In this document: positions 43,830-49,589 of the stretch, piece by piece
How positions within the stretch are numbered: position 1 is the first letter of the stretch
Layout of the letters: every line of letters starts with the position of its first letter
Source: Methanobrevibacter sp.
Lineage (GTDB): Archaea > Methanobacteriota > Methanobacteria > Methanobacteriales > Methanobacteriaceae
Direction: 5' to 3'
Assembly (NCBI RefSeq): GCF_015062935.1
Contig: NZ_SUTM01000003.1
Span: forward strand, 1-64,000
Length of the DNA: 64,000 bases
Made by a program: the position numbers and the translations under genes
Notes under the pieces: model-generated
Seen by the model: only the letters and a program-made list of their open reading frames with translations
Told to the model about the DNA's origin: nothing
Database searches by the model: none

Positions 43830-44699
43830 ATGAAAGATGAAGAAATAGAACGTCCGCAGGCAATGAAAATTCGTCAGGGCATACAGGATGCAATGACATA
43901 TTCCTTGCCGGACAAGAAATTTAATCCGAAAAATATCGATTTGGTTGAGATAGACATTGAATTAAATGATTTAAGCTGGAATTTTAATAATTTTAGGATT
44001 TTAAATCTGACTGACATTCATTTGGGCCAATGGATTAATCCGGAATACCTAGACGAATTAATAGACTACGTCAATACATTAAATGTTGATTTGATTACAT
44101 TAACCGGAGATTACTTTTCATACGTTATTGAAGGCTATGAAGAATCCCTGGAAAATTCATTAAAGAAATTAGATGCTCCTTACGGTAAAGTTGGTGTTTT
44201 GGGAAATCATGACCATTGGATGAGTTCTGATAAAATCAGAGAAATATTTAAAAATTCAGACATTATTGACTTAAGCAATGATGTTATTACCCTTGAAAAA
44301 GATGGAGACCGCATTAACATTTGCGGTGTTGACAGCTGCACAGTCTGCGCTGATGATTTAGACAAGGTTATTGCAAAAATGCCTAAAAACATTCCAAACA
44401 TTTTACTTGCCCACGAACCTGATTTTGCAAAGGAATCATCACAAACCAATTTATTTGACCTTCAAATTTCAGGCCATTCCCATGGAGGGCAATTTATCAT
44501 TCCAAAATTTGAAACCACACCATTCAGAGGCCCTAACTCAACAAAATACCCAGTAGGACTATATAAAGTAGGAAATATGATTCAATACACAAGCAAAGGG
44601 CTTGGAACCAATTCATTCAGAGTTAGAATTAATTGCAAACCAGAAGTAACAATTATTACCTTAAAAACAACCAAAAAACATAAAATTGAGATAGAATGA
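43830..44699 (+). CDS. Metallophosphoesterase
   Basis: A 289-aa calcineurin-like phosphoesterase. Metal-site motifs in order: LTDIHLG, TLTGDYFS, LGNHDHWMSS, LLAHEPDF, SGHSHGGQF. It resembles the YkuE-like group but has no signal peptide; a hydrophilic N-terminus precedes the domain. It overlaps the downstream alkaline-phosphatase-superfamily gene by 4 bases (ATGA), so they are translated together. The substrate is unknown. Confidence 0.9.
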   Translation: MKDEEIERPQAMKIRQGIQDAMTYSLPDKKFNPKNIDLVEIDIELNDLSWNFNNFRILNLTDIHLGQWINPEYLDELIDYVNTLNVDLITLTGDYFSYVIEGYEESLENSLKKLDAPYGKVGVLGNHDHWMSSDKIREIFKNSDIIDLSNDVITLEKDGDRINICGVDSCTVCADDLDKVIAKMPKNIPNILLAHEPDFAKESSQTNLFDLQISGHSHGGQFIIPKFETTPFRGPNSTKYPVGLYKVGNMIQYTSKGLGTNSFRVRINCKPEVTIITLKTTKKHKIEIE

Positions 44700-46819
44700 T
44701 TAAAAACAGATTAATCTCCTCATTAAGGACAATAATCACTACTCTATTATATATCCTAGCCAGTGCTGTCGCAATTTATGCAGTGGATTACATAAGCACT
44801 GATTTTACTGTTGGCCCCTGGTATAATGCATTCATCATTGTCATAGCGGTTGCAATTGCAAATGCACTTTTGTGGCCAATATTTAGACGTTTCCTGATGA
44901 AAGCAATCATATTTACATTAGGCATAGGATCACTATTCATTAACTCAATAATTTTCTATATCACATCTTTATTCATTCCCGGCGTTTCAGCAGGAGTTTA
45001 TGGAGTCCTCCAAGTTCCAATCATGATGGCAATTGCCACCACATTCGTTACACACATTACCGACACAAATTACTACGACAGTTACCTGAAAAATATTTTA
45101 AGATATGCATTAAAGCAAAAAGCTGCATATAAAAAGAAATATCCTGGACTGATCATGCTTGAAATTGATGGTCTTTCAATAAACATCCTTAAAAAAGCAA
45201 TTAATAAAGGCGTGATGCCCAACATTAAAAAATGGATAGATGACAAGTCACACACATTGAAGGGTTGGGAAACAGATTTATCATCACAGACCGGATCAAG
45301 TCAGGCCGGAATTCTCCATGGTAACAATAAGGACATTGTAGCTTACAGATGGGTTGAAAAAGAAAATAACAACAAAATTGTCGTTTCTGGAAAATTAAGC
45401 GATGCCCCCGAAATAGAAAAAAGAATAAGTGATGGGAACGGTTTGCTTGTTAACGGTATAAGTATTGCAAATATGTTTTCTGGAGACAGCAAGATTCCCA
45501 CATTAACATCATCCAAATTAAAAGGCATGAGAAACATTTACAACAAAACATTGGATGCGGTGTTTTTAGATGCCTATAACTATCAGAGATTAATTGTATT
45601 GCTCTTATGGGATATTATCCTAGAGTTAAAGTCCCAAATAGTCCATCGTGTGAAAAATATACAGCCAAGACTTAGAAGAACAATTGTTTATGCTGCAGTT
45701 AGGGCGGGAGCCAACATAGCTTTAAGAGAAGCAGCAACCGATGTTTTAACAAGTGAAATACTAACAGGCAATATTGACACAGCCTATGCAACATACATGG
45801 GTTATGATGAAATTGCCCACCACTCAGGAGTTGAGGATGACGACGTTTGGAAAGCATTGAAATACATTGACTTCCAATTTGCAAAATTAACATCTGCAAT
45901 TGAAATGAGCGACAGAAATTATGAGATAGTTGTCCTGTCAGACCATGGCCAATCCAAAGGAGCTACTTTTAAACAGAGATATGGAATAACCCTAGGCGAT
46001 TACGTTAGAAAATTCCTTCCGGACGACATGATGATATTCAAAAATGAATATAATATTGACCACTTCAGAGATGCCGTTATTCCTGAAAATAAACAGATTA
46101 AAAATATCAAGAACAAATTTGGAAATATTCGTGACGATTTATTTGAAGATTTAAAATCTCTCCAGGACATTAGGGACGAAGTTGAAAAAAGAAAACCTGC
46201 AATAATATTTGAAAACAGACAATATAAAAACATTAGAGACAAATATTCAAATAGCTTAGATTATATTAAACACCATGAAAGTATAGAACAAAGTACTAAA
46301 AAAGCAAAAGATTCTGAACTGATTGTTTTAGGATCAGGCAACTTAGGTTTGATTTACTTAACCCAATGGAACCAGCGCCTTACTTATGAAGAGATAGTAA
46401 TGCTATTCCCAGACTTGATACCGGGTCTTGTAAAGCACACAGGAATAGGATTCATATTAGTTAATTCGATAGCCAATGGAGGAATGGTGATTGGTCAAGA
46501 TGGAATATACTACCTGGAAACAGATAAGATTATTGGCGAAAATCCTCTCGAAAACTTTGGAGAAAATGCCGCCAAACACCTGAAAAGACAGAATTCCTTT
46601 AAAAATATGCCTGACATTCTAGTCAATAGCTTTTATGATGAAAAACATGATGAAGTATGTGCATTTGAAGAGCTTATTGGGTCCCATGGAGGACTGGGAG
46701 GTGACCAGACAAAACCGTTTATTTTATATCCTTCCGAATGGGAGGACCCTGGTGATTTGATTGGTGCAGAATCAATTTACAAATTTTTAAAAAAAGAAAT
46801 AGAGAATTTAAACTCTTGA
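44696..46819 (+). CDS. Membrane-anchored alkaline phosphatase superfamily enzyme
   Basis: A 707-aa protein. Four N-terminal TM segments (about 9-30, 40-62, 70-97, 100-120; similar to holin-type DUF membrane domains) anchor a large domain of the phosphodiesterase/alkaline phosphatase superfamily: LIMLEIDGLS (metal Asp and nucleophile region), TGSSQAGILHGN (possible Thr/Ser nucleophile), AHHSGVEDDDVW, VLSDHGQSKG (DH metal ligands) and GSHGGLGG. Together with the upstream phosphoesterase it suggests hydrolysis of a phosphodiester in lipid or wall metabolism; that is inference. Confidence 0.85.
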   Translation: MIKNRLISSLRTIITTLLYILASAVAIYAVDYISTDFTVGPWYNAFIIVIAVAIANALLWPIFRRFLMKAIIFTLGIGSLFINSIIFYITSLFIPGVSAGVYGVLQVPIMMAIATTFVTHITDTNYYDSYLKNILRYALKQKAAYKKKYPGLIMLEIDGLSINILKKAINKGVMPNIKKWIDDKSHTLKGWETDLSSQTGSSQAGILHGNNKDIVAYRWVEKENNNKIVVSGKLSDAPEIEKRISDGNGLLVNGISIANMFSGDSKIPTLTSSKLKGMRNIYNKTLDAVFLDAYNYQRLIVLLLWDIILELKSQIVHRVKNIQPRLRRTIVYAAVRAGANIALREAATDVLTSEILTGNIDTAYATYMGYDEIAHHSGVEDDDVWKALKYIDFQFAKLTSAIEMSDRNYEIVVLSDHGQSKGATFKQRYGITLGDYVRKFLPDDMMIFKNEYNIDHFRDAVIPENKQIKNIKNKFGNIRDDLFEDLKSLQDIRDEVEKRKPAIIFENRQYKNIRDKYSNSLDYIKHHESIEQSTKKAKDSELIVLGSGNLGLIYLTQWNQRLTYEEIVMLFPDLIPGLVKHTGIGFILVNSIANGGMVIGQDGIYYLETDKIIGENPLENFGENAAKHLKRQNSFKNMPDILVNSFYDEKHDEVCAFEELIGSHGGLGGDQTKPFILYPSEWEDPGDLIGAESIYKFLKKEIENLNS

Positions 46820-47659
46820 AAGCCAATAGTCAAAAATCTCTGAAATTTCTTCATCAAAACCTATTGTTTTATCTTTATTTTCAGGAATTGCCTGAGGATG
46901 ATCCTTATTTAATCTAATTAAAGTAGTGTTTGGATAATTAAAAGTCATCTGCTCAAATGGATATCTTATAATGCCCGGAGTGTTATATCCAACTCCAAGT
47001 TCCAGAAATACAATGTTTTTGTCTTCATCAACATGATTTAAAAAATCAGAATATTTACTGTTCATATCATGCCATTTAGCATCTTCAACAAACCTGTTAT
47101 CAACTCTTAAATTTAAATCCATCTCTTCACCGCAAACAGGACATTTCGGAATTAATTCTGTAGGTATTTTGAAATCTTTAGTATTTTCCACCCATTCAAA
47201 GACCTGGTCTTTATTAGAGTATAATTTATCGTGGCATGGCTTGCTGCATTGCAATAGGCCATAATCCCCCTGAGTGGCAAAAATCCTTTCATCATCAAAT
47301 CCATTTATCCAAAACTGAGACTCAACATTTGTGGTTAATACAAAATAATCCTTATCTTCAACTAATTTCAATAATTTCTGATAAACCTCTGTTTTGCCCA
47401 CATCATACCTGTTTGCAAAAATATGGAGTGCCCAGTAAGCCCATTTCTCTTCAGATGTTTTGAATGGATAAAATCCTGAAGAGTACATGTCTGTGAAATT
47501 ATACTCTTTTATAAAATCCTTGAAATATCTTTCAAATCGCTCACCTGTATATTCAATGCCCGCTGCAGTTGAAAGCCCTGCACCTGCACCAATAATAATA
47601 TAATCCGCATTTTTAATAGCTTCGTAAGCTTTATCTAATCTTTGTACAAAACGTTCCAT
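46808..47659 (-). CDS. Class M-type sirtuin (SirTM-like)
   Basis: A 283-aa NAD-dependent protein. NADYIIIGAGAGLSTAAGIEYTGERF (residues about 17-42) is the SirTM NAD motif, then FTDMYSSGFYPF, FVLTTNVESQFW, TQGDYGLLQCSKPCHDKLYSN and CPVCGEEMDLNLRVDNRFVED. The zinc Cys pairs are present. SirTM enzymes act as protein mono-ADP-ribosyl transferases. It sits 8 bases after a macrodomain gene on the same strand and overlaps the end of the opposing phosphatase gene by 12 bases. The ADP-ribosyl target in this organism is unknown. Confidence 0.88.
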   Translation of the reverse strand: MERFVQRLDKAYEAIKNADYIIIGAGAGLSTAAGIEYTGERFERYFKDFIKEYNFTDMYSSGFYPFKTSEEKWAYWALHIFANRYDVGKTEVYQKLLKLVEDKDYFVLTTNVESQFWINGFDDERIFATQGDYGLLQCSKPCHDKLYSNKDQVFEWVENTKDFKIPTELIPKCPVCGEEMDLNLRVDNRFVEDAKWHDMNSKYSDFLNHVDEDKNIVFLELGVGYNTPGIIRYPFEQMTFNYPNTTLIRLNKDHPQAIPENKDKTIGFDEEISEIFDYWLSRV

Positions 47660-47667
47660 CTTATCAC

Positions 47668-48444
47668 CTAAAATAATAATCTTTTATAAATTGAATAATC
47701 GTCATCTGTAAATACGTTGAAAATCACATGATTTAAAGTGGTTTCATTATTTTTCAAATACTCGCTGACAGTTTTAACGGCAATTTCTGCTGCCAAGTCC
47801 TGAGGGAAATTGAATACTCCTGTGGAAATGCAACAAAATGCAATTGAGTCAAGTTCATTATAGCTTGCTATTTCCAAACAGGACTTATAACAGCTTGCCA
47901 ATGCTTCACAGTCTTCATCAGAAGGTCTTGATCCTTGAGGAATTGCGGGTCCGACAGTGTGAATTACATATTTTGAAGGCAGGTTATATGCTCCGGTGAT
48001 TTTTGCCTTGCCCACCTTTTCATCCTCATTCTGTATTTTCATTATCGTATTGCATTCATCCCGTAGCTGGACGCCTGCCGCTGAGTGAATAACATTATCA
48101 ATGCAGTTGTGTAGAGGTATAAAACAGCCTAATAACTTTGAGTTTGCAGCATTGACAATTGCATCAGCTTTTAAGGTTGCAATATCACCCTGCCAAAGCA
48201 TTAGTTTACCATTGACCTCTTCGATATCCTCAACAGATGTCAAATCTTTGTTTAATGTTTCGTTTGTTAAAAAATCATCCTGAACTTTTAAAAATTCATC
48301 AGACACTTTAGAAGGCATTCTAACATTCATCAGTGCACGCAGCAAATTTCTTTTATCATCATAATCCTGTGGAATTTCAATTGACTCTTTTCTTTCATCT
48401 ATCAAGTAATTAATTAAAAAATCTAATTGTTCGCGTGTATTCAT
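47668..48444 (-). CDS. Zinc-dependent macrodomain ADP-ribosylhydrolase (SirTM-linked type)
   Basis: A 258-aa protein. [31 protein letters not shown] (residues about 97-127) matches the zinc macrodomains linked to SirTM, with C107, H112, C114 probably binding zinc. [22 protein letters not shown] and [24 protein letters not shown] complete the ADP-ribose site. An N-terminal helical region of about 75 residues precedes it. It would remove ADP-ribose placed by the neighbouring sirtuin. No GcvH-like or LplA2 gene is present here. Confidence 0.9.
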
Positions 48445-48499
48445 TTAATCCCTCCTAATTTGTTAATAATAATTTATTTTTAGTATTTAAATGATTTTT

Positions 48500-48536
48500 G
48501 TAACTTTTAGGAAACCATGTAACTAAAAAGTAACTA
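48500..48536. promoter_or_regulatory. GTAACT repeats between the macrodomain and HxlR genes
   Basis: GTAACT occurs three times (48500-48505, 48519-48525, 48530-48536); the last two are direct repeats GTAACTA 11 bases apart, one helical turn. They lie about 24-60 bases before the HxlR start, a good place for an autoregulatory operator. Confidence 0.4.
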
Positions 48537-48559: not shown

Positions 48560-48949
48560 ATGACTATGAACACCGAAAAAATAGTTTGTCCTGTTGACAG
48601 AACTTTAAACCTAATCAATAAAAAATGGAGCATACAAATCATAAGGGATATGTTTTTTGGCAAAAAGCATTTCAAGGAATTTAAAGAGGATAAACCTAAA
48701 TTAAGCAATAAAGTCCTATCAAATTGTTTAAAAGAACTGGAAGAAAACGGACTTATTGAAAAACATGTTCTGGACACAACTCCCATAACTACAGAATATC
48801 ACTTGACTGAATACGGCAAATCAATGAACAAAATCATCTATGAACTCGCAATGTTCACATTACATGATGCAAATGACAACAGTTACTCTGACGAAATTAG
48901 AAATGATTTGAAAAAAACATTTAAAGAAAAATTAGAGATAAATGATTAA
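48560..48949 (+). CDS. HxlR-family winged-helix regulator
   Basis: A 129-aa DNA-binding protein. CPVDRTLNLINKKWSIQIIRDMFFGKKHFKEF and KLSNKVLSNCLKELEENGLIEKHV form the winged helix, with TTPITTEYHLTEYGKSM the wing. The conserved Cys (near residue 9) is often a thiol/electrophile sensor in this family. It overlaps the CbiE gene by 8 bases. It probably represses itself. Confidence 0.9.
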   Translation: MTMNTEKIVCPVDRTLNLINKKWSIQIIRDMFFGKKHFKEFKEDKPKLSNKVLSNCLKELEENGLIEKHVLDTTPITTEYHLTEYGKSMNKIIYELAMFTLHDANDNSYSDEIRNDLKKTFKEKLEIND

Positions 48950-49589
48950 AATGAGAGGTAAAATATATATTGTTGGAATCGGACCCGGTGCAAGCGAATA
49001 TTTGACAAAAAAGGCTATCGATACTGTCAGGTCAAGTGACTATACCGTCGGCAGCACCCGTGCAATAGACCTGTTTGATGATGTGGCAGGCAAAATTGCT
49101 TTTAACGTTAAAGATTTGGTGGATAAACTGGAAGAGGGTGTTCAACTGGCTTGCGACGGCAATACGGTTTCAATATTGTCAACAGGAGACCCTGGTTTTT
49201 CAGGTGTTCTAAATACTGTTTTAAGAATTTCAGCTGAAAAGGACTTCCCAAAGGAAAACATTGAAGTGGTGCCGGGAATCAGTTCCCTCCAGCTTGCGGC
49301 TGCAAAATGCCACATCCAATGGGACAATGCCAACGTGATGACTTTTCACGGAAGAGAAAATATAGAAGACATCTTGCCGGTTATCAACAATGGAAAAGTG
49401 ACCATAGCTCTTCCTTCTCGTAAAGTTAAGGATATGGCGCAATTCCTTCTGGACAACGGCGTTGAACCGGACAGGAAAGTTGTCGTGTGTGAGCGCTTAA
49501 GCTATCCTGACGAAAAAATTGTAGAGTCCAGTTTAAAAGACATTGCTCAGAGTGAATTTACCTATATGTGCATTATTGTTATATATTAG
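48942..49589 (+). CDS. cbiE: Cobalt-precorrin-7 (C5)-methyltransferase
   Basis: A 215-aa SAM-dependent methyltransferase for corrin-ring synthesis. GKIYIVGIGPGASEYLT is the P-loop, VSILSTGDPGFSGVL the SAM loop, VVPGISSLQLAAAKCHI and VMTFHGRE follow. The 215-aa length matches CbiE alone, without a CbiT domain. It is co-transcribed with the HxlR regulator. Start may be ATG 48942 or 48951. Corrinoid is needed by methanogens for Mtr; other cbi genes are not here. Confidence 0.88.
   Translation: MIKMRGKIYIVGIGPGASEYLTKKAIDTVRSSDYTVGSTRAIDLFDDVAGKIAFNVKDLVDKLEEGVQLACDGNTVSILSTGDPGFSGVLNTVLRISAEKDFPKENIEVVPGISSLQLAAAKCHIQWDNANVMTFHGRENIEDILPVINNGKVTIALPSRKVKDMAQFLLDNGVEPDRKVVVCERLSYPDEKIVESSLKDIAQSEFTYMCIIVIY

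Follow-up and report, generated by a model that had tools for sequence, protein, structure and literature searches.

What does a class M sirtuin modify, and what controls it, in an archaeon that is devoid of lipoyl carrier proteins? This question is raised by a 64,000-nucleotide stretch of DNA from Methanobrevibacter sp. (assembly GCF_015062935.1, contig NZ_SUTM01000003.1, positions 1 to 64,000; hereafter the window), in which the genes of a sirtuin (SirTM) and a zinc-dependent macrodomain protein (Zn-Macro) lie side by side. We find that the two genes form a three-gene cassette with a divergent gene encoding an HxlR/DUF24 regulator. We propose that this cassette is probably a thiol- or electrophile-induced, lipoyl-independent ADP-ribosylation switch, co-regulated with a small flavoprotein.

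The writer and eraser genes

SirTM (46808..47659, minus strand, 283 amino acids) is a class M sirtuin and, by prediction, a mono-ADP-ribosyltransferase, the writer of the pair. When the protein was compared with the PDB using phmmer, the only matches below 1e-3 were SpySirTM (5A3A, 2e-59) and a fungal fusion protein (8RSN, 1.9e-30), with no canonical deacylase among them. All published signature residues are present. Gln130 occupies the position of the catalytic histidine and is invariant, together with Asn111 and Arg185, in an alignment of nine sequences; the SpySirTM counterparts Gln137, Asn118 and Arg192 define class M. SirTM also has the GVGYNTP loop (residues 222-228, found in 69 of 74 homologues), four cysteines of the zinc-binding type (Cys138/142/173/176) and linkage to a macrodomain gene, across a gap of 8 bp.

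Zn-Macro (47668..48444, minus strand, 258 amino acids) is the first gene of this two-gene operon and encodes a predicted zinc-dependent ADP-ribosyl hydrolase, the eraser. It likewise shows all published signature residues, namely the Cx4HxC zinc loop (C107, H112, C114; motif in 66 of 67 homologues), the Dx3H dyad (D116/H120) and the NAAN motif (98-101). The best PDB match over the full length is MorMacro from M. oralis (8RSI, 2.7e-123), with SauMacro (5KIV) far behind, and the protein scores above the NCBIfam cut-off for 'protein-ADP-ribose hydrolase'. The macrodomain starts near residue 80, preceded by an N-terminal extension that forms a three-helix bundle in the known structures.

Both open reading frames are intact and conserved, with exactly the coordinates given in the initial annotation of this DNA. 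A family survey found SirTM and Zn-Macro paired in nearly all of 70 loci, some of them truncated. Homology, structure matches and signature residues support the writer/eraser pair that the annotation had recognised.

Second SirTM copies were observed at some loci. In another methanogen genus, a tandem copy (L053:9009-9911, L054:8603-9466, L055:6662-7522, L056:1984-2844) has lost the GVGxNTP loop, with GAGAGLS replaced by AGGEYLS and the catalytic Gln by Asn; judging from these changes, it is probably a pseudoenzyme beside an active copy. A divergent second SirTM at L041:7664-8494 (39% identical) has no Zn-Macro gene nearby and sits in a cluster with several HxlR genes, two PPOX flavoproteins and putative membrane proteins.

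A divergent regulator belongs to the unit

The HxlR/DUF24 regulator (48560..48949, plus strand, 129 amino acids; the start may be 48566) is divergent from the pair and overlaps by 8 bp with cbiE, the gene for cobalt-precorrin-7 C5-methyltransferase. In SirTM-negative species, where regulator, Zn-Macro and SirTM are all missing, cbiE abuts a phosphodiesterase gene or other genes of the upstream flank. Because these empty sites lack all three genes, the regulator belongs to the unit. The 'module' of the initial annotation was therefore right as to the pair and incomplete without the regulator. Within the genus, close HxlR orthologues were found in 40 of 46 SirTM-positive genomes and in none of 21 SirTM-negative ones (Fisher p ~2e-12, a value inflated by the relatedness of the genomes).

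The trio also occurs at unrelated genomic sites and in other gene orders, either as divergent genes or as one operon, and often stands beside a 134-residue PPOX-type flavoprotein (L035, L043, L053, L057, L064-L066, L084, L090). SirTM is present in 75 of 139 genomes of the family, so that the adaptation to an archaeon suggested in the initial annotation is not peculiar to this one.

The regulator contains an HxlR winged-helix domain (PF01638, 1.2e-22), and its PDB neighbours are YodB (2.2e-15), YybR, HxlR and QsrR. The cysteine of its N-terminal CPVD motif aligns with the YodB cysteine, and a CPV-type motif was found in 47 of 48 homologues. By analogy with these proteins, the regulator is probably a thiol-sensing repressor.

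In most species of the genus, the cassette is flanked as it is here. A phosphodiesterase/holin-like membrane protein gene (44696..46819, plus strand), which adjoins cbiE at the empty sites, is followed by SirTM and Zn-Macro on the minus strand, and then by the regulator and cbiE (48942..49589) on the plus strand. Both flanking genes lie outside the cassette. In genus g12 (L047-L052, L060, L061), the pair was seen beside genes for glutathione peroxidase, a flavodoxin-like protein, a GNAT protein and an alpha/beta-hydrolase. Contexts with the PPOX flavoprotein, glutathione peroxidase or the flavodoxin-like gene are redox-themed. DUF169 proteins (cluster c17) recur beside the pair in two methanogen genera (L053, L057-L059, L065).

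One predicted operator at two promoters

An alignment of 35 intergenic regions revealed a conserved element (AAAAATCATTTAAATA; 48484..48499, minus strand) 40 bp before the Zn-Macro ATG, which we interpret as an archaeal B recognition element (BRE) and TATA box, the latter at 48484-48491. Directly abutting it is an operator predicted by conservation (48500..48534, minus strand; GTTACTTTTTAGTTAC-ATG-GTTTCCTAAAAGTTAC), composed of two 16-bp dyads with a 19-bp period and four half-sites. Aligned upstream regions of Zn-Macro read GTTAC-N6-GTWAC-N3-GTTYC-N6-GTTAC immediately 5' of AAAAATCATTTAAATA. Half-sites are clustered (mean best cluster 2.13 per 60 bp, against 0.30 in shuffles), and 82% of 67 Zn-Macro upstream regions contain at least two. 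A sigma-70 promoter scan found fewer sites than shuffles and was uninformative, as expected in an archaeon.

To see where else the operator occurs, the 35-bp pattern was scanned across 67 genomes of the genus, allowing up to 2 mismatches and using the reversed pattern as a control. The operator was found at 53 places, 32 before Zn-Macro/SirTM and 21 before a flavoprotein gene, with none of the 53 elsewhere; the reversed pattern gave 6 scattered matches. This genome has two sites, G000:C3:48500-48534 in the window and G000:C3:100285-100319 on the same contig outside it. The latter is followed by a TATA box and a flavoprotein reading frame at 100381 (~100.4 kb). The single 16-bp dyad is less selective: it occurs 11 times in this genome. 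Three of these occurrences fall at the two predicted promoters, and several others have a core unlike that of the operator.

The 134-residue flavoprotein seen beside the trio at other sites matches Pfam PNPOx_N, and its sole PDB match is to a NimC/NimA family protein. The gene behind the second site likewise encodes a small flavoprotein of the NimA/PPOX type. With a small flavin protein among the two targets of the operator, a response to redox or electrophile stress that operates without lipoic acid is suggested.

The genome has a biotin system but no lipoyl partners

The initial annotation had noted the lack of GcvH-L and LplA2 beside the pair, a claim that their presence elsewhere in the genome would have overturned. 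In this assembly, which is 99.6% complete, no GcvH (GCV_H, PF01597) was found, whereas 13 of 14 control genomes matched; the LplA/LipB catalytic family (LplA-B_cat, PF21948) was also absent from the genome. The controls gave matches for all four families searched (PF01597, PF21948, PF03099, PF00364). PF03099 and PF00364 each matched one protein of the genome: the first a BirA-type biotin ligase, whose gene neighbours that of a biotin carboxylase, and the second a carboxylase subunit, at its biotin carrier end. The genome is thus without GcvH and lipoate ligase and has a biotin system only. The claim survives genome-wide, and the absence of GcvH-L and LplA2 implies a different target protein, as the annotation had argued.

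Its statement that GcvH-L and LplA2 normally accompany the pair in bacteria was overstated, as lone pairs are published for many bacteria. In bacteria, Rack et al. 2015 described pairs that form independent operons as well as pairs that belong to extended ones (PMC4518038). Known extended operons come from Lactobacillales and Staphylococcaceae, published lone pairs from many bacteria and from M. oralis (PMC4518038, PMC11490716). Crystal structures of the M. oralis Zn-Macro were reported by Ariza et al. 2024 (PDB 8RSI/8RSJ/8RSK; PMC11490716). Its 'minimal operon' comes from the same methanogen family and has the same two genes with the same catalytic motifs as here. Since lone pairs, including that of this close relative, are published, a methanogen SirTM/Zn-Macro pair without lipoyl partners is not new. 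The M. oralis paper treats the pair only; regulator, operator and co-regulation with a flavoprotein were not found in the literature searched, nor was any paper that links HxlR with a macrodomain and a sirtuin, or NimA with HxlR and flavin.

The extended operon of Staphylococcus aureus and Streptococcus pyogenes comprises GcvH-L, Zn-Macro, SirTM, LplA2, old yellow enzyme (OYE) and LLM (PMC4518038). By homology, the system described here shares its SirTM and Zn-Macro chemistry, as well as an association with flavin-dependent oxidoreductases. In contrast, GcvH-L, LplA2 and the lipoate pathway are missing, the operon contains no OYE or LLM, and a PPOX/NimA-type flavoprotein with a common operator is found instead. 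Also absent is the Arg-Arg that in SauMacro contributes to the positively charged patch of extended-operon enzymes; the window protein has Pro-Gln at the aligned positions. MorMacro is reported to release ADP-ribose from PARP1 E988Q, whereas it does not do so from GcvH-L (PMC11490716). An old-yellow-enzyme-like gene, recognised by eye only, follows a biotin carrier gene in this genome (L092:1794-2795); OYE is a member of the bacterial extended operon (PMC4518038).

Bacterial relatives and origin of the pair

The bacterial observations come from 76 close relatives, selected because they resemble the archaeal proteins, and should be read as a lead rather than a census. One distance rule places HxlR genes close to the pair in 20 of the 76. 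Among 150 operonic neighbours, the Pfam family seen most often (12) is the PPOX flavin domain, either by itself or in fusion with a ferredoxin domain; next come ferredoxin-type domains and the DUF1848, NAD(P)H-binding, nitroreductase and zinc dehydrogenase families. Several bacterial HxlR promoters carry a dyad like the archaeal operator (L197 and L215, GTTTC-N6-GTAAC). At the loci of these 76 relatives, queries with E. coli GcvH and LplA gave no match, in a search of limited sensitivity that included no extended-operon control; both families are also missing from the 25 commonest families of operonic neighbours. Possible further partners are DUF1848 and radical SAM/SPASM proteins, which are found repeatedly in bacterial operons with SirTM and Zn-Macro (L152:4846-5775 and similar loci). 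In all, at least 593 candidate stretches with relatives were confirmed.

In a quick tree, the SirTMs of the genus form one supported clade (98) among Firmicutes-like sequences, while other methanogen genera stand apart. The tree needs 5 label changes, of which the starred branches force only 1; a single source or a single transfer into archaea is unsupported. Transfer of the pair from bacteria, as suggested in the initial annotation, is plausible and compatible with this nesting, but the number and direction of transfers are not settled by the tree.

A model for the cassette

In our model, two 16-bp dyads that touch the BRE/TATA box would be bound by the HxlR repressor, which would keep the pair off. 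Oxidation or alkylation of the N-terminal cysteine would free the repressor from the operator, as in YodB, QsrR and HypR. Zn-Macro and SirTM would then be induced jointly with the NimA/PPOX-type flavoprotein that bears the same operator elsewhere. SirTM would use NAD+ to mono-ADP-ribosylate a non-lipoylated protein, and Zn-Macro would remove the mark, as suggested by homology, including that to the M. oralis enzyme. Enzyme activities, signal and repression, as opposed to activation, are what we infer here.

The model is based on the known DUF24/HxlR sensors YodB, QsrR, HypR (YybR) and HxlR, which belong to the same winged-helix family as the regulator and share its N-terminal cysteine. Sensors of the YodB/QsrR/HypR type bind dyad operators that overlap core promoter elements and control flavin or oxidoreductase genes, and the arrangement here is alike. 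It differs in the archaeal BRE/TATA promoter and in an ADP-ribosylation pair as the predicted target, and redox sensing would be by analogy.

Several observations weigh against this model. It rests on genomic comparison, and the genomes in the co-occurrence counts are related and hence not independent. HxlR proteins can also activate, not just repress. The neighbouring regulator has been lost at some SirTM loci (L037, L045, L088), and in genera g9 and g12 the operator is often present with no regulator gene next to it. Finally, about half of the SirTM-positive genomes in the genus lack an orthologue of the flavoprotein, which is therefore neither the sole target or partner nor an obligate acceptor.

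The co-regulated flavoprotein is nevertheless the leading, albeit non-obligate, candidate acceptor of SirTM. More speculatively, the acceptor of lipoyl-free pairs in methanogens and anaerobic bacteria may be this NimA/PPOX-type flavoprotein or its ferredoxin-fused bacterial cousin, with the pair as the reversible-modification arm of an HxlR-run thiol/electrophile response. We regard this wider proposal as tentative.

Alternatively, the pair could be a general metabolic or housekeeping ADP-ribosylation switch that has no dedicated link to redox stress, with the HxlR gene being a mere neighbour coupled to cbiE and cobalamin synthesis. At most loci the reading frames of the regulator and cbiE, which run in the same direction, indeed share 8-11 bp. 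However, SirTM-negative species retain cbiE without the regulator, the regulator accompanies the pair to sites without cbiE (L035, L043, L065, L084, L090), and within the genus the operator is confined to the promoters of the pair and the flavoprotein. We therefore consider this explanation unlikely.

A toxin-antitoxin or anti-phage unit, in which SirTM would be a toxic ADP-ribosyltransferase, Zn-Macro its antidote and HxlR an autoregulator, is less likely still. Such a unit would be in keeping with the tight spacing of the writer and eraser genes in an operon led by the eraser, with their patchy distribution and clean empty sites, and with some plasmid copies in bacteria. DarT/DarG, too, encode an ADP-ribosyl writer and a macrodomain eraser together, but with other enzyme folds and targets, and in this comparison toxicity is known only for DarT/DarG. 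Against this reading, PADLOC gave no match, only 3 phage records match, all unannotated, and the pair occupies one syntenic site in most of the genus, with no hopping. Its operator also suggests co-regulation with a flavoprotein, and characterised SirTMs are highly specific for their carrier protein (PMC4518038). With no PADLOC support and negligible phage linkage, we set the defence reading aside.

It is also very unlikely that SirTM modifies the biotinyl carrier in place of lipoyl-GcvH-L. The carboxylase subunit with the sole PF00364 match contains the only biotinyl/lipoyl-type domain of the genome, and the biotinyl carrier fold resembles the lipoyl domain of GcvH-L. Yet carboxylase and pair have no genomic link, and the known acceptor site of GcvH-L (Asp27) is on a part of its surface distant from the lipoyl lysine (PMC11490716). 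Least probable of all is that SirTM is a deacylase and Zn-Macro clears O-acetyl-ADP-ribose: the sirtuin has a weak NCBIfam match to a deacylase subfamily, far below the cut-off, and we reject the reading in view of its matches to SirTM structures only and of Gln130, found in SirTMs without deacylase activity (PMC4518038).

Taken together, the conserved two-target operator narrows the system to a concrete regulon of one regulator, one ADP-ribosylation pair and one small flavoprotein, and suggests that this lipoate-free system keeps the redox theme seen in the lipoyl operons. If the flavoprotein is indeed the acceptor, the ADP-ribosylation circuit would act on it in place of a lipoyl carrier. 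The cassette thus provides a candidate thiol-sensing regulon in an archaeal genus that is common in animal guts.

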